A stretch of DNA of 64,000 nt from an uncultured Oscillospiraceae bacterium. Its GTDB lineage: Bacteria; Bacillota; Clostridia; Oscillospirales; Oscillospiraceae. Position 1 is the stretch's first letter, and each line of letters begins with the position of its first letter. Made by a program: the position numbers and the translations under genes. The stretch is from the NCBI GenBank assembly GCA_947631865.1, contig CANRNF010000001.1, positions 1 through 64,000 on the forward strand, in the 5' to 3' direction. Shown piece by piece: positions 9,178 through 30,731 of this stretch. The notes under the pieces were generated by a model. It had not been told where the DNA came from, did no database searches, and was given only the letters and a program-made list of their open reading frames with translations.

Positions 9178-9355
9178 CTGCACATGCCAAAAGTATTCGT
9201 ATTATGTAAGAGTGTTGCAGATAGGTCTGCGTGATTTGGCGGGATAATCACGGACAAATCTCGTAAAAGCTGCGACGTGGAAATCATGGCGAGTTTAAGA
9301 CTGTTTGGGTCCAGACATTACGTTGTGTCAACTAGGTATATGTGTTTCTGGTGGC

Positions 9356-11056
9356 CTATTCAGAGAGAAGCTGAATGGGCTGGGAAGGGTTCCACTGGGG
9401 ACAGGCCAGAGGATAAGATTTGCACACTTGCCTGACAGATGCGTTTTCCGGAGTGCAGTGGCAATGGATGGCGTGATCTTTGTCTCGCAGAAAACCGGAT
9501 TTCAATAGGTGTTCTAGACATCCCAGTGGAACGCCAGGACGGTCTGTATGAAAGTGCTGGTAAAATTGGTTTGACTCCAGATGCTGAACGCCATCTTCCG
9601 TTCTGAAAAGATCCAGAAAGTCCTGAGAGATCACTGCCGGATTAAAATACAATAGCTGCTCGATCAGTTCTGTTGGCGAGATATTAGGAGCATGATGACT
9701 GACCTCCCGGAAGAGGCGCTCTGCAAAACTTTCTGCGGCTCTCTTATGAACGGACAGAATGCCTTCCCAATTCGTCGGCAGCTGCGGGTCAAACTCCTGG
9801 TCATCCGCAGCGTTTCTCATAAGGGTAAGAAACTCGGCAGATGTCAAATAGTCGGCGGTGGCGAAGAAATTGTTACCAAGCAACTGATGATGCATTTGTT
9901 GGAATTGGTGAAGAAGCGGCATAAAGGAATATTCCTTGTCAAATAAATGCCTGTGCAGCAACATCGTAGCATGTGAGAGGTCATCACTTCTTATATTCTC
10001 AAACCGCCCTTCATCGGCCGACATGGTATAGTAAAGGTTCAGCGCGGCCATGTGCAGTAGCAGCTCAGAATTGGACATGTTTGAATCAGCAGCGAAGTGA
10101 TCGACGGCAGCCAGAACAAAGGCTTCTTTTGAATCAAACTCATTCAATATGGTGGTCGATCCACTGCGCAGACGGTCCCAGACATCCCGGAAAGTCACAT
10201 GGTCATAAGCGGAAACCAGCTTTAACTCGTCTGTGTGGATATCCCACTGAAAAAAGATGTCCAGAAGCCTGCTGGCACCAGATGTTCCAAAGCGGGTCTG
10301 CATGATATGCTTGCTCTCACGGATCAGATTCTGGTAATCCGCCTGTACTGACTCTTGGCTGCGCATCCTTTTCACGCGTTCTTTGAGACGATCAACCTGG
10401 CTGGAGGAGATACAATAGGCTTCTACAAGGTGCTTACGCTTGATCCCGCAAAGATAGCACGTCAGCACAGAGGCAGTGAGCCGCAATGTCATTCCGCTGT
10501 TCTCGTAGCTTTCCATACCAACTATCCGCTCGTCACCAAACAGTCGCCTGCAGTCTCTTTTTGTGCATTGAACTCTTACACGTCTAATGTATAGAGAGGT
10601 CGGCTTGCCGCAGAGCCGGATATCACTTAACCGGGCATGGCTGTCTCTTTCAGAGGAGAAATAAACAGGGCTCGAACAGTGTGGACACTGTTTTGGAATG
10701 GATGTTCGGTCGGGTGAGTAGAACAACTCAATGCTAATATCATACAGAAACAGGTCATCGCGTAGATCACAATTATACCAATAGCCCAATTCTCTTCGTG
10801 TACCATGTCTTTCGTGGTTGGTCAAGCATTCGTGACAGAGATTAACATGTTTACGGCAGATGTCCTGTGTTGCCTTTGTATCACTTTCTGAAAGAATGTC
10901 AAATGGGAGCTTCTTATAGGGCTGAAGGAAGTCGACAAGATTGTCGCATTCTTCTGCAAAGTCATATTGATGAGGGAAAGGCGGCCTGACGGAAATATAG
11001 TTAACAGAGACTGGATAGCAGGAGCAAAGCTTCATATATCTCTCAGTATTATTCAT
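9356..11056 (-). CDS. uncharacterised zinc-ribbon protein, possibly transposition-associated (weakly ISL3-zinc-finger-like)
   Basis: 566 aa; CPHCSS...LFGKP-like segment LCGKPTSLYIRRVRVQCTKRDCRRLFGDER and N-terminal CRKHVNLCHEC; no clear DDE triad by eye. Confidence 0.45.
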   Translation of the reverse strand: MNNTERYMKLCSCYPVSVNYISVRPPFPHQYDFAEECDNLVDFLQPYKKLPFDILSESDTKATQDICRKHVNLCHECLTNHERHGTRRELGYWYNCDLRDDLFLYDISIELFYSPDRTSIPKQCPHCSSPVYFSSERDSHARLSDIRLCGKPTSLYIRRVRVQCTKRDCRRLFGDERIVGMESYENSGMTLRLTASVLTCYLCGIKRKHLVEAYCISSSQVDRLKERVKRMRSQESVQADYQNLIRESKHIMQTRFGTSGASRLLDIFFQWDIHTDELKLVSAYDHVTFRDVWDRLRSGSTTILNEFDSKEAFVLAAVDHFAADSNMSNSELLLHMAALNLYYTMSADEGRFENIRSDDLSHATMLLHRHLFDKEYSFMPLLHQFQQMHHQLLGNNFFATADYLTSAEFLTLMRNAADDQEFDPQLPTNWEGILSVHKRAAESFAERLFREVSHHAPNISPTELIEQLLYFNPAVISQDFLDLFRTEDGVQHLESNQFYQHFHTDRPGVPLGCLEHLLKSGFLRDKDHAIHCHCTPENASVRQVCKSYPLACPQWNPSQPIQLLSE

Positions 11057-11178
11057 GCTGACCTCCCGGAAGACATGTATCTGCTATATATCTATCTTAT
11101 CGCACTTTTGCGTGTATTGCAAATGTTGTGAACGAGCCTGACGCGCAAACGCAACTTCTAAGCTGAAATGGTAGTAAA

Positions 11179-13035
11179 ATGCAGCCATCAAAGCGAAGGG
11201 GGGAAGACTGTATGCAGAAAAAGGCTGCTTTACAGCAAATTAAGGCCAGAAAGACACGGGTCAGACAGCTGAGAAAAACAGATGATGTGGATGCATTTCT
11301 CCACTATATATACAATAGCGATGGCTTGGTCACTGAGGTGTGGGGGTATGGTGTTATCCATGGGACAAGGGATCGTGCGGATGGGGCAAGAAACCACAGG
11401 CGTAAGGTGACTGGTCAAAGCATAAAGGATGCAGAAGCATTTGTAGAGAACGCTATCATAGATGACTGGAATAGGACTCAGCCGGGCAATCAGGAGTCTG
11501 AGGAGGAGTCCTTTGAAACGATTCTGAAAAGGGTCGTAAAAGAACATAATGATGAGATACGTTTTCTGGCGAGACAAAACTTTGGTTGGTCGGAAGGCAC
11601 AATACAAATTAGTATTTCCTTTTTGACATATACCGTTTCTAAGTACATCAAGGACCGCTGGACAAATATGGCCGATGTCGTTGAGGATATTGTTAACAAG
11701 TCAATGACTCATGGAAATAGTAATGGTGAACGGGATAAAGTGTGTTTGGATATTCAAAATAAGCTGAAAAGAACAAAGAAGCTATTTTCACTGATACAAA
11801 ATGAATATGGTGTATTAGAAGAGTATAGCTTGAACTTTCCGGTCATATCTTTTGGCCAGGTCGCTCAGCGAGAGCAAGTAAAGTCCGTGAAAAAGACGGT
11901 ACGAAGCACATACCTTTATGCTCTATGGGAATTGGCCCTGCGGGGAGTGGCTCTTGCCTTTGGCGCGGCGATGATGTATTTCTGCGGGCTGCGAACTGGT
12001 GAGGCAGTCGCGCCTTTAATTGGTGATATTGAGATCAGTGCCGATGGAAGATATGCACTCTATCTTGCCCGAAGCCAAGTGAAAAGGGGAAAGCGGACGG
12101 AATACATGAAAACAGAACAATCTTATCGCTTGGTCATACTGCCTTATGGTATGGTGCGTTTTGTTCAACTCCGCATAAAGCAATTGCGGGAAAATGGATA
12201 CAGTGATGCAGATATCGCAAGGATACCACTGGTTTCTTTTGGGGATGAAAAGGAGGTATTCGTGAAAGAGAGTCTTTTATCAGGATTTGTAAGAGCACTG
12301 CTTGCCCTGTGCGGTGGACCAAAGGAGACTGCTCTTAAAGAGGCCGGCATGGCGGAGAAGGAAGATCTAAAATGTATCGGGGAAGAAAACACCAATGCCT
12401 ATATACAACGTAGGGATTTTGCATCTCGGAGTATAAATGACTGCGGCATCACACCTGCAGAAACTGACTATCTTTTGGGGCATAAGTCAACAGAAGTAGG
12501 GTATGAAACGGTCTTGGCGAAAAAAGGGACGGAGCAGTGGTGCGCTTCCATAGCAGGACGGTTGGAACGATATGTGACCTGCCCGGAGTTTTCATTGAGC
12601 CCAGCAGTAGTCCCAGTAAAGATGAAGCCAGGGCAAGAAATAGACCTTCAGGGCGGGGCGGAGTATATCTTCCAGGCGGAAGAAGACTGCGTGGTCGATT
12701 TAGCGGCGTATAACATGGAAGCAAACGATTCCATGTATATGTCGACTGAAGGTGGTCTCTCAGAAGCTGAGCTTAGGTGTGGCACGAAGCTGGAAGATCA
12801 AAAAAGTCGGCCATATCGAATGACATCATTCGGTGTACAGCCCTCTGAAGGGGAAATGGAAAAATGCAAAGAAAAAGGAAAAGAGATAGCTGAATCTGTG
12901 ATGAAAGGAAGTGCTTTTGATAAGTGGGTAAAGAATGTAAAGACTACACCATACGATGGGAAAATGACGATACTGGAAAGTGCAAAGGGAAAGGGAGCGT
13001 CTGTATCGGAGCAGTTACTTTTCGCTTCAGCGTAA
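11179..13035 (+). CDS. large tyrosine recombinase-like protein 1
   Basis: 618 aa; YFCGLRTGEAVAPL (Arg box), QRRDFASRSINDCGI...LLGHKSTEVGYE (partial HxxR..GH..Y box). Confidence 0.6.
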   Translation: MQPSKRRGEDCMQKKAALQQIKARKTRVRQLRKTDDVDAFLHYIYNSDGLVTEVWGYGVIHGTRDRADGARNHRRKVTGQSIKDAEAFVENAIIDDWNRTQPGNQESEEESFETILKRVVKEHNDEIRFLARQNFGWSEGTIQISISFLTYTVSKYIKDRWTNMADVVEDIVNKSMTHGNSNGERDKVCLDIQNKLKRTKKLFSLIQNEYGVLEEYSLNFPVISFGQVAQREQVKSVKKTVRSTYLYALWELALRGVALAFGAAMMYFCGLRTGEAVAPLIGDIEISADGRYALYLARSQVKRGKRTEYMKTEQSYRLVILPYGMVRFVQLRIKQLRENGYSDADIARIPLVSFGDEKEVFVKESLLSGFVRALLALCGGPKETALKEAGMAEKEDLKCIGEENTNAYIQRRDFASRSINDCGITPAETDYLLGHKSTEVGYETVLAKKGTEQWCASIAGRLERYVTCPEFSLSPAVVPVKMKPGQEIDLQGGAEYIFQAEEDCVVDLAAYNMEANDSMYMSTEGGLSEAELRCGTKLEDQKSRPYRMTSFGVQPSEGEMEKCKEKGKEIAESVMKGSAFDKWVKNVKTTPYDGKMTILESAKGKGASVSEQLLFASA

Positions 13036-14576
13036 GTAAGACCAGTACACAGGGGTATCTCTATCGTGTGCATATGTCAGTTATTTCGCCTATGGATGGC
13101 AGGGTGTTGATGGTAGATGGGGAGCGCAGACAGAATATTCTGAAGAATCTTTCAGCAAAAAAACGAGCCAAGGCCAAAAAGGGCATGAGGATTTCAGAAC
13201 TTACTGCATGTACTGAATTCTATTTGAATACCGATGACGAAAAGGAAATAAAGCAAAAAATAAACGAAAAGGCGCTGGAATTAAACGGAACATACTGCCG
13301 GGAGATAAACAGAGCGTTGGATATGCCTGCTAATAGAGACCTTACCACTGCAGAAGCTTTTCAATCAAGAGGGGAGAAGTTTATTGCAGACATAACTAGA
13401 AATTGCTCCCCTGAAAGAAGCAGAACGCAGCTTCTTCGGCTGGAGAGGCTCTGCTGTGAGCTTTCGTATAAAGAGATGTCAAACATAACAGCTGAAGACA
13501 TTCGTTCTCTGCTAAAGAAGGTGACGGGTAACGATAAGACCAAAAGGCAAAAGCTAACTTTGCTTGGGCGCTTCTGGAATTACTGTCTGAAAGAAAAGCT
13601 GACCAGTGGGATAAACCCAGTGGAAAGCTTTCAAAGCGACTACCCCGGGATGTTGCGTGGAAAGCGCAGAGCAGCGGTAGCAGAGAACAAAGTGGGCAGT
13701 TTAGAGTCGGAGCAGCGTGAGAAATTATACCACCATGTTGAACAGCACTTGGATGATGGGCGAGCGATCTCAATTTGCCTCCTTAGTGGGGGCTATATCG
13801 CACCAAGTATACAAGTCGGGCTCACATGGAGAGATGTTGAGTTTAGGGACGGGTCAAACGGATCAGATGTGCGCGTGCATATAAAGAATGAGCAGATTCT
13901 GGGCGCAACGCATGATTTTACTAGGCCGCTGTTCCGCCAGGAAGGGCATTTGTTGATAATGCGCTATACAATGCTTCAAAAAGTCTACGGCGAGGCATTG
14001 AGGGATATGCCCGTAGTGTCAGTTAAAGGCGAACCTAAAGAACCAGCGAAAGCAAAAGAACTGACGGCATACATCAGAGATGCACTCCTACGTGCTGGCG
14101 TGCGTAATTCTTTGCTTGCACCATCCACGAATCCCAACCCACGGATTGGAATGGGCACGCAGCTATTGCAGCAGGATTATCGGAAACGGTTACTGGAATG
14201 CGGGTTGGAAACGGATCAGGGCCTTCAAGATTTCTTACTGATGCAGCGGATCAGAAGCGTGACCGCTGATTATTACCGCAGCTTCACCTCTGAGGAAGGA
14301 CAGCGATATATACGGTGCAAGCTGGATAGGTGGGTCGATCCGACGCAAAGAATAGTAGAGAAAACTGAAGAGCCGGAAATACATTTGGAGGGGGAGAGCA
14401 AGAGTGTTAAGATGTTTCCTGCGGGCGTGGCATGCTGTAATCAACTTGATGGACAAATCAAGCTGAAAAAGGGACAGAGGATCGTGTTGCGATCAGAGGC
14501 AGGCATATCTGGGCAGCTACAAATCATGCGTGCCGATGCCACGCCGGCTCCCCTTCATGTGATCGAAGTCTATTAG
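12924..14576 (+). CDS. large tyrosine recombinase-like protein 2, apparently catalytically degenerate (start uncertain; overlaps previous gene)
   Basis: N-terminal SAM-like region (LRLERLCCELSYKEMSNITAEDIRSLL) and degenerate C-terminal box LLSGGYIAPSIQVGLTWRDV, LQQDYRKRLLECGLETDQ. Confidence 0.5.
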   Translation: MGKECKDYTIRWENDDTGKCKGKGSVCIGAVTFRFSVSKTSTQGYLYRVHMSVISPMDGRVLMVDGERRQNILKNLSAKKRAKAKKGMRISELTACTEFYLNTDDEKEIKQKINEKALELNGTYCREINRALDMPANRDLTTAEAFQSRGEKFIADITRNCSPERSRTQLLRLERLCCELSYKEMSNITAEDIRSLLKKVTGNDKTKRQKLTLLGRFWNYCLKEKLTSGINPVESFQSDYPGMLRGKRRAAVAENKVGSLESEQREKLYHHVEQHLDDGRAISICLLSGGYIAPSIQVGLTWRDVEFRDGSNGSDVRVHIKNEQILGATHDFTRPLFRQEGHLLIMRYTMLQKVYGEALRDMPVVSVKGEPKEPAKAKELTAYIRDALLRAGVRNSLLAPSTNPNPRIGMGTQLLQQDYRKRLLECGLETDQGLQDFLLMQRIRSVTADYYRSFTSEEGQRYIRCKLDRWVDPTQRIVEKTEEPEIHLEGESKSVKMFPAGVACCNQLDGQIKLKKGQRIVLRSEAGISGQLQIMRADATPAPLHVIEVY

Positions 14577-14699
14577 GATAATTATTGGCCATGCCGTGGC
14601 TACGATGTTAAGCAGGGCCCGAAACGCTTACCGCATTTCGGACCCTACTATTTGTATGTGCCTTTTATTTCCGGGCAAATGAGGATACGCTATGTGGTC

Positions 14700-15277: not shown

Positions 15278-16114
15278 ATGCTGATAAGCAAGGAATCGAT
15301 AACGTCATTTTGTATGTATCTGCATGAGCGGGAATGCAGTGAGGCGACGGTCAGCAAATACTTACACGATGTAGAGCAGCTGAGATCGTTCTGCGGCGGG
15401 AGCGTGGAAGATAAGAGCGCGCTCATTACCTTTAAGCGGGATCTGCAGAGGCGGGGATATGCTGCCAGCAGCGTCAATTCTATGCTGGCGGCGGTGAACC
15501 GGTTTCTGGAGTTTGCCGGGCACCCGGAGTGGAAGTTGCGCTTTCTGAAGGTACAGCGGACGACATTCTCGGACGGAAAGAGGGAACTGTCACAGCGGGA
15601 CTATGAAAAACTGCTTCAAGCAGCCAAGGCCAGAGGAAACGAACGTCTGGCCATGCTAGTACAGACGATCTGTGCCACAGGCATCCGGGTCAGCGAGGTG
15701 CGAGCCATCACGGTGGAGAGCCTGCGGCGCGGTCAAGCAGAGATCCGCAACAAGGGACGGATACGAGTGATCCTGATACCCAGAAAGCTGTGCAGGACCT
15801 TGGAGAACTACTGCAGGAAACGGAGGATCCGCAGCGGTCAGGTATTTGTGACGCGGACCGGTAAGCCACTGGACAGGAGCAACATCTGGAAGAGTATGAA
15901 GCGGCTGGCGGTTCTGGCGAGAGTGGAAGTAGAGAAGGTGTTTCCTCACAACCTGCGGCACCTGTTCGCACGGACGTATTACAAAGCATACAAGGATATC
16001 GTTCGGCTGGCAGACATCCTGGGACATGCCAGCATCGACACCACCCGTATCTACACGAACCGCACAGGAACGGAACAGCAGCGGCAGATCGAACGCCTGC
16101 CGCTGCTGATGTAA
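15278..16114 (+). CDS. XerC/D-like tyrosine recombinase A (putative invertase of adjacent switch 1)
   Basis: 278 aa with intact ATGIRVSE, HNLRHLFAR, LGHASIDTTRIYT motifs; ends 15 nt before inverted repeat. Confidence 0.85.
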   Translation: MLISKESITSFCMYLHERECSEATVSKYLHDVEQLRSFCGGSVEDKSALITFKRDLQRRGYAASSVNSMLAAVNRFLEFAGHPEWKLRFLKVQRTTFSDGKRELSQRDYEKLLQAAKARGNERLAMLVQTICATGIRVSEVRAITVESLRRGQAEIRNKGRIRVILIPRKLCRTLENYCRKRRIRSGQVFVTRTGKPLDRSNIWKSMKRLAVLARVEVEKVFPHNLRHLFARTYYKAYKDIVRLADILGHASIDTTRIYTNRTGTEQQRQIERLPLLM

Positions 16115-16185
16115 ACGAATAATTTAGTAACCACATAATCGGTATTATGTAGTCGAAGAATAACGATATATCAAATTACGCACAA

Positions 16186-16214
16186 ATTATAGCGAATAGA
16201 AGTGCTATTGTCAA
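16186..16214 (-). promoter_or_regulatory. sigma-A-type promoter inside switch 1, pointing away from the adhesin
   Basis: Minus strand TTGACA (16214-16209) - 17 nt - TATAAT (16191-16186). Confidence 0.8.
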
Positions 16215-16348
16215 CCCTACATACCCCCCCCCGCAGCATCTGGAAGTGACAAATTTGTGCATTTTACCAAGGAAATGAGCACACTGAAACAAGGGTGCTC
16301 AAATCGGCTATGCCCAGAGTGATAAAGATTTGTGCATATGCCGACGAG

Positions 16349-16393
16349 CCGGCCCCTCATTTGCCCTCATGGTGAATGAGTGGCCGGTTTTTT
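16349..16393 (+). terminator. intrinsic terminator inside switch 1
   Basis: CCGGCC..CTCATT - loop - AATGAG.GGCCGG followed by TTTTTT. Confidence 0.75.
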
Positions 16394-16544
16394 GCATCCT
16401 TCAGCGCCATTTATAACTACATAATACCGATTATGTGGTGAAGCGAGAGAAGCGCGGCGCAGCGGTCAAAAGGGATAGAGAGACTGCGCAGGCTGTGCCC
16501 GCTGCCTTTATTGATGGTAACCAGTTGAGAAGGGGAGACAAAGC

Positions 16545-19500
16545 ATGAAAAAGAGCAGGAAAGCATTTAGGACGCTGGCGCTTGTCTTGTGCCTTGCCAT
16601 TGCGCTGGGATTGATCTCCGGCATGACCTTGAAGGAAAGCGAGACGGGGTCTCCAGAGCCTTCCCAGAGCGCCATGCCCCAGGAGGCGTCGCCTGAGATG
16701 GACGACACGCCGGCCGCCGGTGATCCACTGGCGGGAGAGCAGACGGAAGACGGCGCGCCCATGGGCGAACCGGAGACTACGAACGAACCGGAAACCTCCG
16801 AGGAGCCGGAAGTCACCGAGGGGCCGGAAATCACCGACGAACCGGAAGCCACGGACGAGCCGGAGACCACCGAAGAGCCGGAAGCCACCGACGAACCGGT
16901 GGCCACCGACGAACCGGAAACCACGGATGAACCGGAAACCACCGAGGAACCGGAAACCACTGACGAGCCGCAGGTCACCAAGGAGCAGCGCTATGTCTGC
17001 ACCGGCGACGGCGTGACTGTCAGCGCGGCGGTGGCCCCGGAAAGCGGCATCCCGGCGGACGCCGAGCTCCACGCGGACAAGGTGGCCGAGGGCACCGACG
17101 CCTACACCCAGGCCTATGATGCCCTGTGGCAGACCTTGGGCCTGACCGAGGGCGACGAGCTGTACTTCCTGCCCTATGACGTGTACTTCACCGCCAACGG
17201 CGAGAAGATCGAGCCGGCTGCCGGCCTGGTGACCGTGAGCATGCAGTTCCCCGTTGACCCCTTCGCGGCTCTGCTGAGCGAGGGGGAGGACGACACGGCG
17301 GACGGCTCGCTCTCCCAGCCCGGCATAGACGGCCCCAGCATCGACGAACCCGACGCGGGCGAGCCGGAGGCGGCTCCGGAGCGGGTGACGGAACAGTTCA
17401 TGGTACATATCCTGGACGACGGCGCCGTGGAGAAGTTGGCCGCGCAGACGGCGGAGGACGGCACGGTGACATTCGCCGTGGGTTCGTTCTCTGTGATGGG
17501 CCCTGCCTTGGTACGGCGCACAGTCGGCCAGGAGCAGGAGGTCTATGTTCCCGTGGCTCCGGAGGGGCTGTCGGGCGCTACCTCGGCGGGGACCATCGAG
17601 GCCGCGCTGGAGAATCTGGCCAACGGCGGCGTCATCTGCCTGACCCAGGACGTGGCCCTGAATGAAGCGGTCATCTACGGCAAGGCCGTGACGGTCAAGT
17701 CCTATGGCGGGGAAGCTCATACCGTGACCAAGTCCGGCGAGGCGGAGAACATGTTCGTCCTCACCAACGGCGCGTCTCTGACGCTGGGGGACGTGACCGT
17801 AGACGGCGGGGATAACACCCTGGGCCGGACCGTGACCGCCACCGGCGGCTCGACACTTACCCTGAACCCGGGCGCGGCGCTGGTGAACAACAAGTCTTAC
17901 GGCGCGGTGTATCTGGACGGCTCCATTATTGATATCAATGGCGGCGCGATCAGTGGCAACGCCACGACGACAGATGAGACGACGGTAGCCACGAAAACAT
18001 ATGGCACCGGGACCCGCTTCGCCTATAACGAAGCAAATGCCGGCAAGCAGGGCCTTGGCGGCGCTGTCCTCATGGTGAACAGTTCCGCCTTTATTATGAC
18101 CGCCGGCGAGATCAGCGGTAACAGCGCCATCTGCGGCGGCGGCGTTTACGCTTACGATTCTGCCGTGTCGGTAACCGGCGGTACGTTCTCCGAGAATACG
18201 GCAGGCACAGCCACAGACGGCCAGGCCTACGGCGGGGCGCTCCACGTGGACGGCGCGGCCTCCACTCAGGTCACTATCGGCGGCAGCGCCCAGTTCACGG
18301 GCAACAGCGCCCAGCGCGGCGGCGCTTTCAGCACCGGTATCGACGCGGATACGGTCGCCCTGACAATAACGGGCGGCTCCTTTACGGGCAACACTGCGAT
18401 GGCCTATGGGTCCATCGCCTTCATCTCTTCCAAGAACTCCGCCATCGACATCAGCGGCGCTGTGTTCAGCGGCAACAGCGCGGCCAAAGAGGGCGGCATC
18501 TATAAGGCGGCAAACGCTGCGAAGGAGCCGAATGGGAACGGCAGATTCACGATCAGCGGCGGGACACAGTTCATCAATAATACTGCGAATAAAGGCCCCT
18601 GCGTCTACGTCACAAAGGACAACGCGGATGCCATCAAAGAATTCCTTGTGGACGGCGTGACCTTCAGCGGCAACAAAGCCACCGACAACGCGGGCGTCAT
18701 ACAGTATAACGTTCCCAACTCCAAGTTCACAGTCAAAAACAGCACGTTTGAGAACAACAGCAGCAACAATAACGGCGGCTGCTTCTATGCGGCGGTGGAC
18801 GCCCAGGGCACGACGTTCACCTTTGAGAGCAGCACCTTCACCGGGAACTACGCCAAGAACCAGGGCGGCGTGTGGCGCGGCTTCCCGCCCCAGAGCCAGT
18901 TCTTTTTCAATGACTGCACCTTTACCAACAACACAGCTGAGCTGGGCGACGGCGGCTGCCTCTACTTCCCCGGTGACGGCGAGAACTCCAACATCACCAT
19001 CGACGGCGGCACCTTCTCCGGCAACACCTCCGGCGCTTCCGGCGGCGCGTTCCGTGCCAACCTGAACGGCGGCACGGTGACGGTCACCGGCAGCGCGAAG
19101 TTCACCGGCAACGTCGCCGATGTGAACGCCGGCGCGTTCTCCGTCCGCCGGAAGGGCGAGGGCTATTACGGCACGGTGCAGCTCCAGTCCTGCATCGTGG
19201 ACGGCAACTGGTGCAACAGCGACTACTCCCGGTACACCGAGGCCGACCTGGAGTCGACCAAGCACTACAACACCGGCGGCATCTATATCGGCGAGAACAT
19301 CACCTGCTATATGCAGGACGCCCTGATCACCGGCAACTACGTCGAGAGCGGCTTCACCGGCTCCACCGTGGGCAGCGGCATCGCCCTGTGCCCCAACGCC
19401 CAGGTGTTCCTGTACCCGGAGCACGGGGCCACCATCTACGGCAACGGCAGCAGCGGCATGGACATCCTGGCCGTGCCCTATGACTCGGTCATCCATCACG

Positions 19501-22500
19501 AGACGCCTGCCAAGCTCTACGTCAGCGACACGACCCCCGACGGCCGGGATTACAACTGGACCGACCTGTCCGGCGGCGACGCCCGCACCGGCAGCTATGA
19601 CTGGACCAACATCCGCAATGGCATCGCCACGGCGGCCCTCGGCCCCGGCGGCGGCGAGGACAATCTGAATCCCGTGGGCTTCCGGGCCAATATCGACAAC
19701 GCCGGCATCGCGACCGTGGCGAACGGCCCCAGCGGCGGCGACTACGCCGTGCAGATCACCAACAACATCGCGACGATCGCTGCGTACGGCGCCGGCGGCG
19801 TGATGGTCAACGGCACGGTCGTCGCGGGCAAGTTAGATGTCAGCGTGCAGAAGAGTGTCATGGTCCAGGGCGTGGGCGTGAGTCAGGCAACGCAGGATAA
19901 GTATAAAAAGGAAACGGAGTATAAGTTCCGGCTCAACATTATTGATGATGATGACCAAAGCGGCGCTAATCTTAGTAGCTCGCTGAGCCTCACATACAAA
20001 GTAGGAGGAAAAGAAAGTACGCTGTCCCTCACCAAGCAGAAACTTAGTTCCGATAGTGAATATGGGTCATACACAGGCCTCGTCAGCGACGAGTTCTCGG
20101 TAACGGGCGAGGGCACGGTGACATTTGACCCAGTCGAGAAAAGCAAAGTCTGGACAAAGGACGGGGCGGATTATAGGTTCCTGCTGGAGGAGACCACGAC
20201 CGGCGGAGCTGATATAGTCGGTATCAGCGGCAAGAACGAGGATATTACAGAGGGTACGACCACCTTCTCCTTCACCGTCACCAACACCTTCCAGTTCGGT
20301 TCGCTGAAAGTGAGCAAGACGGTGGCCGCCGGCGGCGAGCCGGACAAAGAATGGACCTTCAATATCACGCTGACACCGCCCGATGAAGGCGAAGTCAACT
20401 TGGAAGGAACTTACCCCTGCACGATCCATAAGGACGATACTGATCAGCCCGGCACTGTGACGGTCGATGCTGATGGCGTGGTCACGCTCGATGGCGGTGA
20501 TATCACCCTTGGGCACGAGGACTACATCACCATCTACGAGCTGCCCATCGGCACGAAGTACAGCGTGGAAGAGGTCGGGGCCAATACGGGCAACTATACG
20601 TCGAGTGCCTCCGAAGGAAAAATAGAGGGAAATATCACAAATACGGCCACTGTTGAGGCCAAGTTTACGAATACGCCCAGCGGAAACGGAAACCTGAAGG
20701 TCTCCAAGACCGTGGCCGGCCCCCAGGGCGACACCACGAAAGCCTGGGAGTTCGAGATCACGCTGACGAAGGGCGGCGCCGGGGTCAACCAACAGTTCAG
20801 TTACGAGGGCACCGTGGAAGAGCATGAGGGAGACAGCCTGGAAAACGGCCAGATCAGCTTTGATACTGCCGGCAAGGCGAAGGTGTACCTCAAGGACGGC
20901 CAGTCCATCACCATCAATGGCATCTCCGCCGGTACGGAATACACCGTCACCGAGACCGAGGACAATATGGGCAACTACGGGACGGTTTCCGAAGGCGACA
21001 CCGGGACCATCATCATGGACCAAAAGGCAGAGGCCGCGTTCACCAACACCCGCAAGACCGGCGAACTGTCCGTCAGCAAGACGGTGATTGGCCCAGGCGA
21101 CAACGCGAATAAGGAATTTACCTTCACCGTGACGCTGGATGATGCGCCCATCAACGGCACCTTCGGCGACATGCAATTCACCAACGGCGTGGCCACCGTT
21201 ACCCTCAAGGGCGGCGAGACAAAGACCGCCACCGGTCTGCCCGCCGGCGTGACCTACACCGTCACCGAGACGACGGACGACAACTATACCACCACCCAGT
21301 CCAGCTTCACCGGCGCCATCCCCACCGACGGCACCACCGCCAAGGCCGAGTTCACCAACACCCGCAAGACCGGCGGCCTGACCGTGAAAAAGACCGTGGA
21401 CGGCCCCGGCGATAAAAGGAAGAACTGGAACTTCACCGTGACGCTGGATGACAAGACTATCACCGGTACATTCGGCCAGATGCAGTTCAACAGCGGCGTG
21501 GCCACCTTCACCCTCACGGACAACGAGGAGAAGACTGCCGCCGGCCTGCCCGCCGGCGTGGGTTACACCGTCACCGAGACGGAAGAAAACCATCCCCCCT
21601 ACGTCACGCAAAAAACAGGCGACAGCGGCACGATCCCAGCAGATTCAAACGCATCTGCCACGTTCACCAACATATTCAAGACCGGGAACTTGGCGATCAC
21701 CAAGACCCTGGCAGGCGAACAAGGGGTACTTGATACGGGGACAGATTGGGAGTTCGAGATCACCCTGAAAGCGCCTGACGGCGTCGAGCTGCAAGACAAC
21801 GAATACGATTACTCGATCGATCGGACAGGCGGCGCTGGACAGGAAACTGACAAATTGAAGCTCGTTGAAGGAACAGAAGAAAAGAAAACAGCCAAGCTCC
21901 AAGATGGTAATAATGTCAAGCTTAAGGGCGGCGAGAAGATCACCATCACCGGACTGCCTGCCGGCACGACCTATGAAGTGACCGAGACTAAGGCAAACGA
22001 GAACGGTTACCAGATGGATTCCACCGACGCGAAAGGCACTATCCCTGTCGATGCCACGGTAACGGCTGCGTTCACCAACACCAAGCCCGCGCCGGACACC
22101 GGAAACCTGAAGATCAGCAAGACCGTCACCGGCGCCGGCGATCCGGCGAAGGAGTGGCACTTCACCGTGACGCTTACGCCTCCTGCCGACGGAACGCTGA
22201 GCGATAATTATCCGTACACGGGATCGAAGAATGGCACTCTCCAATTCACGAAAACGCTGCCAGACGGGCCTTGGGTGTCCGAAAAGTTCACGCTGAAGCA
22301 CAACGAGAGCATCACCATCACCGGCCTGCCCGCCGGCACGACCTATGAAGTGACCGAGGAAGAGGCCAACGCGGACGGCTATGATACCACCGACAGCGGC
22401 AATACGTCCGACAAGATCGTGAAAGACACGACCCCCGAGGTGAAGTTCACCAACTATTTGGCCCCGCCGACTCCGGTCACCGGCGCTCTGCGGGTCACCA

Positions 22501-23255
22501 AGACCGTCTCTGGCGATCTGGGCGACAAGACGAAGGTCTGGACCTTCACCATCACCCTGGCCGATGGTTCGGGCGTGGTCAACGACTCGTTCCCTTACGA
22601 GGGCACCGTGACGGATCGAACTGATGACAGTGTGGAAGATGGCAAGGTCACCTTCACTGATGGCGAGGCAACGGTGCATCTCACGCACGGTCAGTCCATC
22701 ACGATCACCGGCCTGCCTGCGGGCGCGACCTATGAGGTGACCGAGACCGAAGCCGACACGGACGGCTATACCACCACGTACACCGGCCAGACCGGCGCCA
22801 TTCCCGCCGACGGCACAGCGGAAGCGAAGGTGGACAATTACAAGCCCGCACCCCCTGAGCCCGACGATACGCCGGAGCCCGACGACACCCCGGAGCCCAG
22901 CGGTACGCCGGAGCCCAGCAGCTCGCCGGAGCCCAGCGCCACACCGGAACCCAGCGCCACACCGGAACCCAGCGCCACACCGGAACCCAGCGCCACACCG
23001 GAGCCCAGCGCCACACCGTGGCCCAGCACTTCACCGTGGCCCAGCGGCTCGCCTGGACCCAGCGGCACTCCGGGACCTACCCTGCCGCCGGGGACGACCT
23101 CTGAACCGTTCTACACGCCTGTTCCCACCGAGCCTGTCGCGCCCGCTACGGGGGACGGTATATCCCCCATGCCTTGGGCGCTGCTGGCGACCCTATGCGC
23201 CACCGGCCTGGTGGCCCTGACGACGCGGCGCAGAAGAAAGCCGCATGACCGGTAA
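16545..23255 (+). CDS. large cell-surface adhesin: signal peptide, E/P/T repeats, beta-helix domain, multiple Cna-B-type repeats, proline-rich stalk, C-terminal sorting-signal-like end
   Basis: MKKSRKAFRTLALVLCLAIALGLISG; GNSA..GGA beta-helix repeats; seven (S/T)KTV.G...KEWTFTVTL...ITGLPAGTTYEVTETEA units; PEPSATPEPSATPEPS; APATGDG-TM-RRRRK. Confidence 0.9.
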   Translation: MKKSRKAFRTLALVLCLAIALGLISGMTLKESETGSPEPSQSAMPQEASPEMDDTPAAGDPLAGEQTEDGAPMGEPETTNEPETSEEPEVTEGPEITDEPEATDEPETTEEPEATDEPVATDEPETTDEPETTEEPETTDEPQVTKEQRYVCTGDGVTVSAAVAPESGIPADAELHADKVAEGTDAYTQAYDALWQTLGLTEGDELYFLPYDVYFTANGEKIEPAAGLVTVSMQFPVDPFAALLSEGEDDTADGSLSQPGIDGPSIDEPDAGEPEAAPERVTEQFMVHILDDGAVEKLAAQTAEDGTVTFAVGSFSVMGPALVRRTVGQEQEVYVPVAPEGLSGATSAGTIEAALENLANGGVICLTQDVALNEAVIYGKAVTVKSYGGEAHTVTKSGEAENMFVLTNGASLTLGDVTVDGGDNTLGRTVTATGGSTLTLNPGAALVNNKSYGAVYLDGSIIDINGGAISGNATTTDETTVATKTYGTGTRFAYNEANAGKQGLGGAVLMVNSSAFIMTAGEISGNSAICGGGVYAYDSAVSVTGGTFSENTAGTATDGQAYGGALHVDGAASTQVTIGGSAQFTGNSAQRGGAFSTGIDADTVALTITGGSFTGNTAMAYGSIAFISSKNSAIDISGAVFSGNSAAKEGGIYKAANAAKEPNGNGRFTISGGTQFINNTANKGPCVYVTKDNADAIKEFLVDGVTFSGNKATDNAGVIQYNVPNSKFTVKNSTFENNSSNNNGGCFYAAVDAQGTTFTFESSTFTGNYAKNQGGVWRGFPPQSQFFFNDCTFTNNTAELGDGGCLYFPGDGENSNITIDGGTFSGNTSGASGGAFRANLNGGTVTVTGSAKFTGNVADVNAGAFSVRRKGEGYYGTVQLQSCIVDGNWCNSDYSRYTEADLESTKHYNTGGIYIGENITCYMQDALITGNYVESGFTGSTVGSGIALCPNAQVFLYPEHGATIYGNGSSGMDILAVPYDSVIHHETPAKLYVSDTTPDGRDYNWTDLSGGDARTGSYDWTNIRNGIATAALGPGGGEDNLNPVGFRANIDNAGIATVANGPSGGDYAVQITNNIATIAAYGAGGVMVNGTVVAGKLDVSVQKSVMVQGVGVSQATQDKYKKETEYKFRLNIIDDDDQSGANLSSSLSLTYKVGGKESTLSLTKQKLSSDSEYGSYTGLVSDEFSVTGEGTVTFDPVEKSKVWTKDGADYRFLLEETTTGGADIVGISGKNEDITEGTTTFSFTVTNTFQFGSLKVSKTVAAGGEPDKEWTFNITLTPPDEGEVNLEGTYPCTIHKDDTDQPGTVTVDADGVVTLDGGDITLGHEDYITIYELPIGTKYSVEEVGANTGNYTSSASEGKIEGNITNTATVEAKFTNTPSGNGNLKVSKTVAGPQGDTTKAWEFEITLTKGGAGVNQQFSYEGTVEEHEGDSLENGQISFDTAGKAKVYLKDGQSITINGISAGTEYTVTETEDNMGNYGTVSEGDTGTIIMDQKAEAAFTNTRKTGELSVSKTVIGPGDNANKEFTFTVTLDDAPINGTFGDMQFTNGVATVTLKGGETKTATGLPAGVTYTVTETTDDNYTTTQSSFTGAIPTDGTTAKAEFTNTRKTGGLTVKKTVDGPGDKRKNWNFTVTLDDKTITGTFGQMQFNSGVATFTLTDNEEKTAAGLPAGVGYTVTETEENHPPYVTQKTGDSGTIPADSNASATFTNIFKTGNLAITKTLAGEQGVLDTGTDWEFEITLKAPDGVELQDNEYDYSIDRTGGAGQETDKLKLVEGTEEKKTAKLQDGNNVKLKGGEKITITGLPAGTTYEVTETKANENGYQMDSTDAKGTIPVDATVTAAFTNTKPAPDTGNLKISKTVTGAGDPAKEWHFTVTLTPPADGTLSDNYPYTGSKNGTLQFTKTLPDGPWVSEKFTLKHNESITITGLPAGTTYEVTEEEANADGYDTTDSGNTSDKIVKDTTPEVKFTNYLAPPTPVTGALRVTKTVSGDLGDKTKVWTFTITLADGSGVVNDSFPYEGTVTDRTDDSVEDGKVTFTDGEATVHLTHGQSITITGLPAGATYEVTETEADTDGYTTTYTGQTGAIPADGTAEAKVDNYKPAPPEPDDTPEPDDTPEPSGTPEPSSSPEPSATPEPSATPEPSATPEPSATPEPSATPWPSTSPWPSGSPGPSGTPGPTLPPGTTSEPFYTPVPTEPVAPATGDGISPMPWALLATLCATGLVALTTRRRRKPHDR
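16756..16977 (+). repeat. E/P/T-rich short tandem coding repeats (EPETTDEPE...)
   Basis: repeated GAACCGGAAACCACC-type units. Confidence 0.8.
20293..22835 (+). repeat. about seven Cna-B-like domain repeats
   Basis: recurring LKVSKTVAG..K.W.F.ITL ... GLPAGTTYEVTE ... FTNT. Confidence 0.85.
22852..23090 (+). repeat. PEPSATPEPS/DTPEPSGTPEPS tandem repeats (wall-spanning stalk)
   Basis: CCGGARCCCAGCGCCACA 18-bp units. Confidence 0.85.
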
Positions 23256-23930: not shown

Positions 23931-25514
23931 TTAGAATGTTGTACTATCTGTGTTTTCAAAAAGCACGTTTAGCTCGTCGGAAAACAGATAGGTTATTTCA
24001 ATATGCTTGTCCTCAAAAACGCGGATGCTTTTGACGGTCTGAGCAAGCGTTGCTCGGTCGAGCGTTTCCAGTTCGCCGCGGCGGACAAGCTGTTCTACCC
24101 ATGAGTGCTCCAGAACTTCATCGGGCCGTTCTTGCTTCTCGGCCTTGGCGATCTGGGCCTCAAGGTCACTTTCCTGCCGGTCATAATCTGCCTTGTAACG
24201 CATAAACTCTTCGCGGCTGAGAAGCTTGTCCCGGTAATCCTCATAGGTGCTTTGCTTCAGATGACGGATACGGGCAAGAGCGCCTTGGAGCCGGGCCAGC
24301 TCGTTCTCTCGGTGGGATGCGACAGGGGAGGAGGCTCGCTGCTCCTCAGACAGAGCTTTGAGGTCAGTAACGGCGCGGATAACACGGTTTATGTCATTTA
24401 GGATGATTTCAGAGAGAGTGTCCTCTCTGATATAGTGAGGAGAGCAGACAGATGTTCCATAGCGATGGTAAGACCCACAGGAGTATGTCACACGTCCGTT
24501 CCAGGTGGTCTTACACATGGAGCGGCCGCAGTCTCCGCAGGTGAGGAGCCCTGCGTACATACTCACATTTCCCTCGAAATCAATGGGACGGGCGTTGGCG
24601 CTTATCTGTGCCTGGACGGTATCCCACAACTCCCGGGAGATGATGGGCTCATGCATCCCCTCAACGACGATCCAATCCTTCTCCGGGGCGGCCTTTGCTT
24701 TCGCGTGCATACCGGGGCGGACATACCGGCCAGATACGACTGTGCCTATATAGACCTGGCTTCGCAGGATGCGATGGACGGTGGCATATGTCCAGTATCT
24801 GGTGGAGTCCAGTTTGTGATTGTTGGTGTACCGCTCGCCCATGAGGCGCTTGTACTCGCTGGGGCATGGGATATGCTCGTCGTTCAAAGTCTTGGCGATG
24901 CGTATCTGGCCGATCCCAGCGGCGGCCATTGTGAAGATACGCCTCACGACCTGGGATGCCACCGGGTCAATAATAAGATGGTTCTTCTTGTCGGGGTCTT
25001 TCAGATAACCATAGGAGGCAAAAGCCCCGACGAATTCACCCCGTCGCTGCTTGGTGGTGAAGGAACTGCGGACTTTGGAGGAGATGTCCTTGGCGTACTG
25101 GGTGTTGAAGACGTTTTTCAGCGGCAGGAGCATATCGTAGGGGCCCTGGAGGCTGTCCACGGCGTCGTTGACCGCGATGAAGCGGACATCCCGAGAGGGG
25201 AACCACCGTTCCAGATAATAGCCCATGTCGATGTAGTCCCGGCCGAAGCGGGAAAGGTCTTTTACGACCACACAGTCGATCCTGCCAGCGTTGATGTCCT
25301 CAAGCATCCGCTTAAAGGCCGGCCGGTCAAAATTGGTGCCGGTGAAACCGTCGTCCACATAGTCATCGGTGAGGACCAGCTCCGTATGCCGGCCGCAGTA
25401 GTCCTCTATCAAACGGAGCTGGTTTCCGATGCTGTCACTTTCCAGCTTGTCCCCATCCTCACGGGACAAGCGGGCGTAGCGGGCGACCTTGTATTTTTCT
25501 TTTGTGTATGTCAT
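23931..25514 (-). CDS. large serine recombinase (resolvase + recombinase + zinc ribbon)
   Basis: ARYARLSREDGDKLESDSIGNQ, VVKDLSRFGRDY, CGDCGRSMCK; 527 aa. Confidence 0.92.
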   Translation of the reverse strand: MTYTKEKYKVARYARLSREDGDKLESDSIGNQLRLIEDYCGRHTELVLTDDYVDDGFTGTNFDRPAFKRMLEDINAGRIDCVVVKDLSRFGRDYIDMGYYLERWFPSRDVRFIAVNDAVDSLQGPYDMLLPLKNVFNTQYAKDISSKVRSSFTTKQRRGEFVGAFASYGYLKDPDKKNHLIIDPVASQVVRRIFTMAAAGIGQIRIAKTLNDEHIPCPSEYKRLMGERYTNNHKLDSTRYWTYATVHRILRSQVYIGTVVSGRYVRPGMHAKAKAAPEKDWIVVEGMHEPIISRELWDTVQAQISANARPIDFEGNVSMYAGLLTCGDCGRSMCKTTWNGRVTYSCGSYHRYGTSVCSPHYIREDTLSEIILNDINRVIRAVTDLKALSEEQRASSPVASHRENELARLQGALARIRHLKQSTYEDYRDKLLSREEFMRYKADYDRQESDLEAQIAKAEKQERPDEVLEHSWVEQLVRRGELETLDRATLAQTVKSIRVFEDKHIEITYLFSDELNVLFENTDSTTF

Positions 25515-27110: not shown

Positions 27111-27148
27111 GCCGGCCCCGCGCAAAAAAGGCGTGGGGCCGGCTTTTT
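27111..27148 (+). terminator. intrinsic terminator
   Basis: GCCGGCCCCGCGC...GCGTGGGGCCGGC followed by TTTTT. Confidence 0.75.
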
Positions 27149-27224: not shown

Positions 27225-28064
27225 ATGTTTCTCATAGAAAGAGCAGAGATGGATAGGTTCCGGGCGTACCTGCAGGAGCGGGAGTGCAGCGGCGCGACGG
27301 TAGCCAAGTATATGCGCGATGTGGGGCAACTGGCGGCGTTCTGCGCCGGGCGTGTTGAAGATAAGGGCACGCTCATCGCGTTCAAGGAGGTGCTACAGGC
27401 GAAAGGGTACGCCGCGGCCAGCGTCAATTCCATGCTGGCGGCGGTGAACTGCTATCTGGCCTTCGCTGGGCACCTTGAGTGGAAGCTGCGGTATCTGAAG
27501 GTGCAGAGGACGAACTTTGCATCCAAGGAGAAGGAGCTGACGCAGACGGAGTACCGCCGCCTGGTGGAAGCGGCGGAAGCGAAGGGAGAAAGCCGCCTGG
27601 CTATGCTGGTGCAGACGATCTGTGCCACCGGTATCCGGGTAAGCGAGGTGCGGGCCATTACGGTGGAGAGTCTCCTGTCCGGGCAGGCGGAGATACGGAA
27701 CAAGGGGCGTATCCGGGTGATCCTGCTGCCAAAAAAGCTGTGCGGGGTATTGTTGAAATACTGCCGGAAAAGAGGCATTTCTCAGGGCCAGGTATTCGTG
27801 ACCAGAAACGGACGTCCCATGGACCGGAGCAACATATGGAAGATGATGAAGCGGCTGGGAGAGATGGCGAAAGTGAGCGCGGCGAAGGTGTTTCCCCATA
27901 ACCTGCGGCATCTGTTTGCCCGAACCTATTACAAGACCTATAAGGACATCGTGCGTCTGGCGGACATCCTCGGTCACGCCAGTGTGGATACCACGCGTAT
28001 CTATACCATTCGGACGGGAAAAGAACAGCAGCGGCAGATAGAACGTCTGCCGCTGCTGCTATAG
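27225..28064 (+). CDS. XerC/D-like tyrosine recombinase B (paralogue of 15278-16114; putative invertase of switch 2)
   Basis: 279 aa, same motifs ATGIRVSEVRAITVESL, HNLRHLFARTYYKTYKDIVRLADILGHASVDTTRIYT. Confidence 0.87.
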   Translation: MFLIERAEMDRFRAYLQERECSGATVAKYMRDVGQLAAFCAGRVEDKGTLIAFKEVLQAKGYAAASVNSMLAAVNCYLAFAGHLEWKLRYLKVQRTNFASKEKELTQTEYRRLVEAAEAKGESRLAMLVQTICATGIRVSEVRAITVESLLSGQAEIRNKGRIRVILLPKKLCGVLLKYCRKRGISQGQVFVTRNGRPMDRSNIWKMMKRLGEMAKVSAAKVFPHNLRHLFARTYYKTYKDIVRLADILGHASVDTTRIYTIRTGKEQQRQIERLPLLL

Positions 28065-28103
28065 AAACAGCGTGACCACATAATGTTCATTATGTGGTAA
28101 AAC

Positions 28104-28138
28104 AAAAAAATGCCCCTGCATCAAGCGATGCAGAGGCA
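28104..28138 (-). terminator. minus-strand terminator inside switch 2
   Basis: minus strand TGCCTCTGCATC-GCTT-GATGCAGGGGCA followed by TTTTTTT. Confidence 0.75.
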
Positions 28139-28272
28139 GTACGGAAGATTTGGGCGTGAGTTATTATAGGCACAAATGATCACAGTTGTGCCTATACATC
28201 AATATATAGTTACAATTTAGTTAAAACCACGGCTAATCTGGTGGTTTCAAGCATTTGGAAAGACTCATTTAG

Positions 28273-28301
28273 TTGACAATAAGTTCGAAACAATGTATAA
28301 T
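28273..28301 (+). promoter_or_regulatory. sigma-A-type promoter inside switch 2 facing the EPS locus
   Basis: TTGACA (28273-28278) - 17 nt - TATAAT (28296-28301). Confidence 0.85.
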
Positions 28302-28376
28302 TCCTTGGAACATATGTAAGTGTTCTATTTTGGCGTGACCACATAATGAACATTATGTGGTGAAGGGGGCCGGCGC

Positions 28377-30731
28377 GTGGGCATCGAGCTGTATCCGCAC
28401 AACGAAAAAGCCTATCGCGCAATGCGAAAAATGCTGAACAAGAAGGGGCTCGCCGCCGTGGTCCATCCCACGGGGACGGGCAAGTCCTTTATTGCTTTTA
28501 AGCTGTGCGAGGACGAGCCGGACAAGACTGTCTGCTGGCTGTCTCCTTCGGAGTATATCTTCAAGACTCAGATAGAGAACCTGAAGCGCGCCTCCGGCTA
28601 TGAGCCGCGGAACATCAAGTTCTACACCTACGCCAAGCTCATGATGATGAGCGATGCGGAGATGGCGGAGATCCGGCCGGATATCATCATATATGACGAA
28701 TTCCATCGAGCCGGCGCGGAGATGTGGTCGGCGGGAGTTGAACGGCTGAGGAAGATGTATCCGCTGGTTCCGGTCTTGGGGCTGTCGGCTACCGCGGTGC
28801 GCTACCTGGACAGCAACCGGGACATGTCCGAGGAGATCTTCTCGGGCCATGTGGCATCTGAAATGACGTTGGGCGAAGCCATCGTCCGGGGCATCCTGCC
28901 CGCGCCCAAGTATGTGACCACCGTGTTCCGGTATCAGAACCAGCTGACCCAGCTGGAAGAGCGGGTGGAACGAGTCCGGGGCGCAGGCGTGAAGGACGCC
29001 AATGAGCGGTACCTGGAGGCGCTGCGGCGGGCCCTGGAGCAGGCGGATGGATTGGATACCGTCTTTGCCCGGCATATGGCCAATAGAAGGGGAAAATACA
29101 TCCTCTTCTGTTCGGACTATGACCACATCCAGGAACTGCGCGCTTACACCCATGATTGGTTTTCCGGAGTGAACCAAAATATCCATACCTACCTGGCCTA
29201 TTCGGCGGACCCGGACACAAGCAAAGAGTTTGCCGCCTTCAAGGCGGACGACAGCGACGCGCTGAAGCTGCTGTACTGCATCAACATGCTCAACGAGGGG
29301 GTGCACGTGAAGGGCATCTCCGGCGTTGTCCTGTTCCGGCCCACGGTGAGCCCCATCGTGTATAAACAGCAGATCGGGCGGGCGCTCACGGCGGGCGACA
29401 GCGCAACGCCCCTTATCATCGATGTGGTGAACAACTTCGAGGGACTATGCAGCATCGACTCCATCAAAGAGGAGATGCAGCTTGCTGTACAGCAGTTTTA
29501 CAGCGAGGGACGAAGCGATGAGATCGTGACGGACCGGTTTGAGGTCATCGAACAGGTCAAGGACTGCCGGGAGCTGTTCGAGAGGCTGGAGAGGAGCCTC
29601 GCCAGCAGCTGGGAGCAGTACTTCCAGGCGGCCAGTATATTTGCCGCAGAGAACGGCCATCTGCGGGTACCGAAGAATTTTCAGACGAAGGAAGGTCTGC
29701 ACCTGGGGGCATGGATCGTCACCCAGCGGGCCATCCGTGCAAAGGGGAGCGGACTGACGGATTCCCAGATCGCCCGGCTGGACGGTATCGGCATGATATG
29801 GGACAACCGGCTGGAATCTGCCTGGAACCGCGGGGTCGCCCATTGCAAGGAATATGCCCGAGAGCACGGCGACCTGGAGGTACCTGTGCGGTATGTCTCT
29901 CCGGACGGGTACAAGCTGGGGGCATTCATCAACCGGATGCGCCGGTGGTATGCCAACGGGGAGAAGCAGGCGGTGCTCACGCCGGAGCGCGTGGCGGAGC
30001 TGGAGGCGCTGGGGATGCGCTGGAGCGCCGTGAACCTGAAGTGGGAGCGCAATTACCTGCAGGCCGCGGAGTATTACCGGGAACACGGCGATCTTCTGGT
30101 GCCGCAGGGTTATAAAACAGCGGATGGCTACGCCCTTGGGGAGTGGATAAGACGGCTGCGGAAAAGCTACCGCGCCGGGACACTGACCCAAGAGCAGATA
30201 GAGCGTCTGGAGGCCATTGGCATGTTTTGGGGCAGCCGGCGTTCCGAGTCCTGGGAGACCAATTACCGCGAGGCGGAGAAATACTACGAAGCCCACGGGG
30301 ACCTGGACCTGACGGCAGGGTACTACACAGAGGACGGTTTTGCTCTGGGCAAGTGGGTGGTGGAACTTCGGCGTCAGCGCAAACAGGGAAGTTCCAGTCT
30401 TACTCCGGAGCGGATCGCCCGGCTGGACGCCATTGGGATGATATGGGACAAGCTCTCCTCCTGGGAATACCGGTATGAACTGTGCCAGAGGTACCTGGAG
30501 GAAAACCACGGCATGACCATCCCGAGGGATTACAAGACGGCGGATGGGATCTGGCTGGGCACATGGCTGTACCGGCAGAGGCGGCTCGCGGAAGGACATC
30601 CCTCACAGATGAGCGAAGAACGCCGACAGAAGATACTGAAGCTGGAAGTCTATGGACCGGATGCAGGGATAGGCAGAAGGACAAAGAGATATAAGCTGGC
30701 TGATGCGGTCGACCGGGCAGGACCTGTCTGA
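28377..30731 (+). CDS. SF2 DEAD/DEAH-like helicase with repeated helicase-associated (HA) domains
   Basis: HPTGTGKSF, IIIYDEFHRAG, GLSATAVR, QQIGRAL; C-terminal repeats of the form W...G.L..PR.Y.T.DG..LG.W....R......L...RI..LD.IGM.W. Confidence 0.85.
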   Translation: MGIELYPHNEKAYRAMRKMLNKKGLAAVVHPTGTGKSFIAFKLCEDEPDKTVCWLSPSEYIFKTQIENLKRASGYEPRNIKFYTYAKLMMMSDAEMAEIRPDIIIYDEFHRAGAEMWSAGVERLRKMYPLVPVLGLSATAVRYLDSNRDMSEEIFSGHVASEMTLGEAIVRGILPAPKYVTTVFRYQNQLTQLEERVERVRGAGVKDANERYLEALRRALEQADGLDTVFARHMANRRGKYILFCSDYDHIQELRAYTHDWFSGVNQNIHTYLAYSADPDTSKEFAAFKADDSDALKLLYCINMLNEGVHVKGISGVVLFRPTVSPIVYKQQIGRALTAGDSATPLIIDVVNNFEGLCSIDSIKEEMQLAVQQFYSEGRSDEIVTDRFEVIEQVKDCRELFERLERSLASSWEQYFQAASIFAAENGHLRVPKNFQTKEGLHLGAWIVTQRAIRAKGSGLTDSQIARLDGIGMIWDNRLESAWNRGVAHCKEYAREHGDLEVPVRYVSPDGYKLGAFINRMRRWYANGEKQAVLTPERVAELEALGMRWSAVNLKWERNYLQAAEYYREHGDLLVPQGYKTADGYALGEWIRRLRKSYRAGTLTQEQIERLEAIGMFWGSRRSESWETNYREAEKYYEAHGDLDLTAGYYTEDGFALGKWVVELRRQRKQGSSSLTPERIARLDAIGMIWDKLSSWEYRYELCQRYLEENHGMTIPRDYKTADGIWLGTWLYRQRRLAEGHPSQMSEERRQKILKLEVYGPDAGIGRRTKRYKLADAVDRAGPV

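Follow-up and report, generated by a model that had tools for sequence, protein, structure and literature searches.

The E. coli dif site is built of two short arms around a spacer, CATAA - 6 bp - TTATG. The E. coli fimS invertible element is 314 bp long (PMC9993118). Among invertons, group 139 (invertase group 35) holds 33 members, 32 of them from Clostridia and nearly all near a tyrosine-type recombinase; members of this group have been seen flipping, and an Intestinimonas one differs in orientation between surface-attached and supernatant cultures (PMC11892184). For cwpV of C. difficile, an orientation-dependent terminator has been proposed, with the promoter outside the segment (PMC2784873). 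In C. difficile R20291, the repeats are mostly unrelated, the master recombinase RecV serves several of them, and only Cdi7 lies near a recombinase (PMC5903667). In Bacteroides fragilis, one master serine recombinase, Mpi, serves at least thirteen regions (PMC5903667).

Here, we analysed a 64,000-nucleotide stretch of DNA from an uncultured Oscillospiraceae bacterium, which as a whole is called the window. In it, a recombinase gene, a promoter-bearing segment between inverted repeats and a gene for a large surface protein follow one another. Together they very probably form a self-contained phase-variation module, in which the local recombinase would invert the segment and switch the adhesin-like gene.

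Anatomy of the predicted invertible segment

The features of this first module (window-a) are:

15278-16114, plus strand: tyrosine (Xer-like) recombinase, 278 aa (Pfam Phage_integrase, 7.5e-26, and a SAM-like N domain)
16130-16153, plus strand: left recombination site, ACCACATAAT-CGGT-ATTATGTAGT (repeat search, site family, centre covariation)
16154-16415, no strand: invertible segment, 262 bp, drawn OFF (repeat search, inverted homologues)
16186-16214, minus strand: consensus promoter TTGACA-N17-TATAAT, drawn pointing at the recombinase
16224-16232, minus strand: C9 tract (G9 on the promoter strand), immediately upstream of the -35 box
16276-16301, no strand: mid-cassette hairpin TGAGCAC...GTGCTCA (folding)
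16346-16393, plus strand: intrinsic terminator (folding), predicted in the OFF orientation to block read-through from recombinase to adhesin
16416-16439, minus strand: right recombination site, exact reverse complement of the left site
16545-23255, plus strand: 2236-aa repeat surface protein with signal peptide, DUF7601/DUF5979 stretches, stalk and sorting-type end

The original prediction placed perfect 24-bp inverted repeats around 262 bp, with a recombinase ending 15 nt before the left repeat and an adhesin starting about 105 nt past the right one. The repeat search recovered exactly this pair (100% complementary, 262 nt between), the longest in an 11.5-kb search, and the stop codon at 16112-16114 and the ATG at 16545 give the two spacings. 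Repeats included, the whole element spans 310 bp. The 64-kb window contains only two pairs of 24-nt inverted repeats, at 16130-16439 and 28075-28361, and in 20 shuffles of the window the longest inverted repeat was 16 nt or shorter. As in invertons generally, perfect or near-perfect inverted repeats surround an intergenic promoter.

The promoter was likewise borne out. On the minus strand, the -35 box TTGACA (16214-16209) and the -10 box TATAAT (16191-16186) match the sigma-70 consensus at 12/12 positions, and the match is kept at 12/12 in most ACCACATAAT-class cassettes. A promoter scan of 16440-16544 returned no promoter-like site on the plus strand. The plus-strand terminator expected close to the right repeat was missed by a simple terminator scan and detected by folding with shuffles; it has a folding energy of -30.1 kcal/mol (z = -6.5) and six terminal U, and none of 200 shuffles was equally stable. 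In many modules, a terminator of the same polarity stands at the equivalent place, built on an unrelated stem (GGCCGG, GACCCC, CCCCTGC, GCCCGAC), and only 1/200 shuffled cassettes scored a terminator at -10 kcal/mol or better. Therefore, the terminator is not accidental. In the comparison across modules, several cassettes lacked a recognisable terminator; most of these belong to the AGAAT-site class. Promoters throughout were called by consensus and terminators by folding. As drawn, the promoter would face away from the adhesin and the terminator would face the read-through, as had been proposed. The prediction that a flip puts the promoter about 160 nt from the ATG also held in silico, where TATAAT comes to lie at 16378-16383, 161 nt upstream and facing the start codon.

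Other elements lie inside the cassette. The C tract beside the promoter has 9 residues in C106, C96 and C115 (contigs of the source genome) and 10 in the homologous locus L014, and is interrupted in L009; its slippage could tune the promoter. The mid-cassette hairpin (z -4.3 to -4.8) has similar counterparts at the same place in homologues (L023, L072 and others; cassette positions ~140-170), with compensatory changes. This covariation is suggestive, but 16/500 and 66/500 shuffles score at least as high as observed, and we therefore claim no RNA structure. The 29-nt hairpin of L072 is the exact reverse complement of that of L023, although the cassettes around the two hairpins align without inversion. 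The octamer ATTTGTGC, possibly a regulator binding site, occurs three times in the cassette (16180-16187, 16253-16260 and 16328-16335), once inverted, beside the -10 box.

The recombinase has an intact catalytic set, R137 K159 H224 R227 H250 Y259. This R-K-H-R-H-Y set is retained across 33 aligned paralogues, one of which has its C-terminal part outside the aligned stretch. The protein is nearest to the XerA, XerC and XerD models, yet it stays under their NCBIfam equivalog cut-offs (113-145 bits versus 220-335), and it falls far below those of the fim-type invertases (25.4 bits versus 221 for NF007370, 20 versus 222 for NF007371). Its best matches among solved structures are XerC-like and XerD.

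The 2236-aa protein has a signal-peptide-like start, seven DUF7601/DUF5979 stretches (Pfam), a PSATPEP stalk and a sortase-signal-like C-terminus of APATG, a hydrophobic stretch and RRRR. These features make it a likely wall-anchored repeat protein. In addition, a pilus ancillary protein model matches it in part, below cut-off. By its sequence, it may serve in adhesion.

A family of modules with matched repeat centres

The source genome is a 3.0-Mb, 150-contig, 87%-complete and fragmented assembly. A module census, built from searches and retrieved stretches of genome, gave 12 loci with recombinase, cassette and target: window-a, window-b, C2, C14, C15, C39, C58, C108, C59, C96, C106 and C115. 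The C115 recombinase is truncated by the contig end and is still counted. Six of these loci fall into two groups of close copies, C39/C58/C108 and C96/C106/C115, which may be paralogues or assembled strain variants. Three further copies of the window-a cassette, 90% identical to it, lie elsewhere in the genome. The generalised site ACCACANAATNNNNATTNTGTGGT has 23 matches in the source genome, nearly all paired and adjoining paralogous recombinases, and the reversed control pattern has none. Some paralogues are broken or lack a site (the C23 region, C16).

The second module of the window consists of:

27225-28064, plus strand: window-b recombinase, 72-73% identical (ORF, recombinase comparison)
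28075-28361, plus strand: window-b invertible cassette, centre GTTC, drawn ON, with its promoter (28273-28301) facing the target
28377-30731, plus strand: window-b target, an HA-domain helicase heading a polysaccharide cluster (domain search)

Beyond the source genome, the site was found in 18/35 genomes of the genus, and in two more genera of the order exact site pairs adjoin a 48-52% identical recombinase. Relatives hold many further modules. Among named records, close recombinases occur mostly in 'Lapin' Oscillospiraceae metagenome-assembled genomes, a name that presumably refers to the rabbit gut. Viral contigs, scanned for exact matches to the site, had none.

The 4-nt centre of the repeats is identical within the pair in all 33 non-redundant modules, which together have 19 different centres. 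When partners were permuted (10,000 permutations), a mean of 2.3 and a maximum of 9 of the 33 matched. Positions 10-15 of the 24-nt site show 100% within-pair identity, against 82% and 85% just outside. Because the outer two of these six positions are near-invariant anyway, the overlap would comprise 4-6 bp. Across the 33 modules, the sites thus have the Xer/dif form, a 6-bp centre, the same in both partners, between two arms. Centres that match within a module and vary between modules are the signature of a recombination overlap, where strands exchange, and these naturally varied repeat pairs map the overlap without experiment. Window-a and its relative L013 have 98.9% identical recombinases and different centres, CGGT and CAGT, changed in both repeats together. 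L092 and L100 carry the cassette in opposite orientations; the variant of the inner arm has switched repeats and that of the outer arm has stayed, as predicted by strand exchange inside the centre.

Both cassette orientations are found between fixed flanks among homologous modules. The promoter points toward the target (ON) in window-b, L015, L018, C96/C106/C115, L085, L087, L090, L099 and L100, and away from it (OFF) in window-a, L013, L014, L016, L017, L019-L023, L071-L077 and others. These calls depend on consensus promoters; the orientation of L024 is uncertain, its promoter match being weak, and calls in the AGAAT-site class are less sure, since the promoter there matches at ~9/12. The best same-locus evidence comes from two cross-genome pairs with homology in both flanks. 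L087 (ON) and L017 (OFF) are 87% identical along 737 nt upstream and 77% identical along 1868 nt downstream; in L090 (ON) and L077 (OFF), the recombinases are 91% identical. Between window-b (ON) and L019 (OFF), 160 bp are inverted at 90.6% identity. The pairs from different genomes are diverged homologues and not strains of one species. Within the source genome, 261 bp are inverted at 90.8% between window-a (OFF) and C106, whose promoter faces its target (ON). ON and OFF states are scattered across the recombinase tree. The adhesin locus is in the OFF state in each of its three assembled copies (window-a, L013 and L014). Taken together, anatomy, comparative orientation and covariation of the repeat centres agree with the original prediction of an invertible promoter drawn OFF. 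'OFF' describes the state of the assembly and not of the population, because the drawn orientation is one consensus of a fragmented 150-contig assembly.

Two further candidates were rejected. L010 seemed to be L021 in inverted form, but the two are one contig, read on opposite strands. Site-bounded exchange of cassettes between loci was considered for invertible segments that are 100% identical within a genome and stand beside diverged genes (L019/L020, L075/L076, L095-L097); the identical tracts extend well beyond the sites, and gene conversion, recent duplication or short-read assembly mixing accounts better for them.

Judged by sequence, the targets of the modules have mostly surface functions. 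Homologous cassettes are followed by DUF7601/Cna_B and FIVAR repeat surface proteins, by LytR-CpsA-Psr (LCP) proteins, or by a sortase and then a large secreted protein. The commonest first gene after ACCACATAAT-class cassettes encodes a helicase with several HA domains (e.g. L071, L025, L019, L015, L017 and L087). Such helicases follow 5/12 of the source-genome cassettes (window-b, C2, C96, C106 and C115), and an additional one lies on C16, a contig without a site match. Two of them, in window-b and C2, head polysaccharide genes. The window-b cluster, from ~30.8 kb, encodes a UDP-sugar dehydrogenase, epimerases, a glycosyltransferase, an O-antigen-ligase-type protein and a flippase-like protein; the C2 cluster includes a FlaA1-like sugar-nucleotide dehydratase, judged by eye from sequence. 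A defence role for the HA helicase was considered and rejected, as PADLOC gave weak helicase-core matches only. In a Eubacteriaceae record (L024 1035-1571), a similar cassette is followed by a gene for a 178-aa protein, NusG/LoaP-like by eye and without Pfam match.

The surroundings of the modules were compared with those in a relative, G033. This otherwise collinear genome lacks a 5.4-kb region of the window (9203-14648), whose three long ORFs have no Pfam match. A large serine recombinase downstream of the adhesin (23931-25514, minus strand) is conserved in it (L105 14596-16176). Collinearity (98%) ends at 27123, ~100 nt before the window-b recombinase, and the two genomes therefore probably have different polysaccharide loci.

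Proposed mechanism and alternatives

We propose that the Xer-like recombinase binds both 24-bp sites, with arms ACCACATAA and TTATGTGGT around a TNNNNA centre, and that strand exchange inside the centre would invert the 262-bp segment. In the OFF orientation, the promoter would fire leftward over the left site, antisense into the 3' end of the recombinase gene, and the terminator would halt rightward read-through from the recombinase, leaving the adhesin-like gene silent. In the ON orientation, the promoter, 161 nt before the ATG, would transcribe the target with a leader of ~155 nt, and the U-run of the terminator would face the recombinase. Inversion in the source strain, a strong promoter and an ON/OFF effect on expression are what this arrangement of parts would predict.

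The promoter might instead mainly feed back on the recombinase, with antisense RNA in the OFF state biasing the flipping rate and control of the adhesin being just one part of its function. In OFF-drawn modules, nothing but the near site separates the promoter from the 3' end of the neighbouring recombinase gene, into which it points. However, the targets lie where the ON orientation would direct transcription and mostly have surface functions, and the antisense transcription is itself a prediction from sequence. As the main role of the promoter, feedback therefore seems rather unlikely, and it can be compatible with a phase-variation module.

A switch of the cwpV type, in which the ON transcript comes mainly from the recombinase promoter and the cassette presents or removes a terminator, appears improbable. 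It would explain why the terminator opposes read-through in the OFF orientation only and why unrelated stems replace it in other modules, and cwpV itself has been proposed to switch by an orientation-dependent terminator with its promoter outside the segment (PMC2784873). Here, on the other hand, the segment itself carries a 12/12 promoter, which most homologues retain, whereas the cwpV inversion region has none. Finally, a decayed or locked relic that no longer inverts and has kept its repeats through recent duplication is highly improbable: the three OFF copies of the adhesin locus and the broken or site-less paralogues would fit it, but the 24-bp repeats are perfect, the recombinase is intact, and both centres change in concert between loci with 99%-identical recombinases.

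Within the phase-variation reading, we tentatively suggest that the modules might form an insulated bank of switches. The paralogous recombinases would act on a common arm sequence, and the private 4-6 bp overlaps, of which the 12 source-genome modules have 8 different ones, would be the main barrier to crosstalk and allow independent variation; in the OFF orientation, antisense transcription would also damp the recombinases. If so, adhesins and polysaccharide loci would vary independently, leading to hundreds of surface states.

Comparison with known systems

Our literature search found no published family that combines dif-like sites, each pair with its private overlap, with an internal terminator and a separate recombinase for every switch, and a search with the site sequence returned unrelated papers only. 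The modules predict phase-variable surface molecules in an uncultured gut Oscillospiraceae lineage and would link HA-domain helicases to phase-variable polysaccharide loci. In addition, inverted ACCACANAAT-NNNN-ATTNTGTGGT pairs adjoining a tyrosine recombinase provide a DNA signature for finding such switches, and the varied repeat pairs are candidate orthogonal recombinase-site pairs.

Judged by published descriptions, the nearest group is inverton group 139 (PMC11892184). The XerC/XerD-dif system resembles the modules in recombinase fold and site shape, whereas the sites here have symmetric arms, inverted pairing and a variable centre, and the recombinases score below the Xer cut-offs. Like B. 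fragilis Mpi, the family comprises many genome-wide invertible promoters that would govern surface polysaccharides. Instead of a master serine invertase, however, a local tyrosine recombinase stands beside each switch. C. difficile cwpV/RecV shares the tyrosine recombinase, a cell-surface target in Clostridia and, for cwpV, the terminator logic. The cwpV promoter lies outside the segment; here it lies inside, and each switch has a recombinase beside it. With fimS and its recombinases FimB/FimE, the locus shares a promoter in a short invertible element, an adjoining tyrosine recombinase, a putative adhesion target and the on/off logic. Unlike fimS, it has dif-like repeats of 24 bp, a strong internal terminator and paralogous modules in the same genome, each switch with a local recombinase of its own, and its recombinase scores far under the fim invertase cut-offs. 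The locus is an inverton of the fimS-like kind, and Clostridia invertons with adjacent tyrosine recombinases have already been published.
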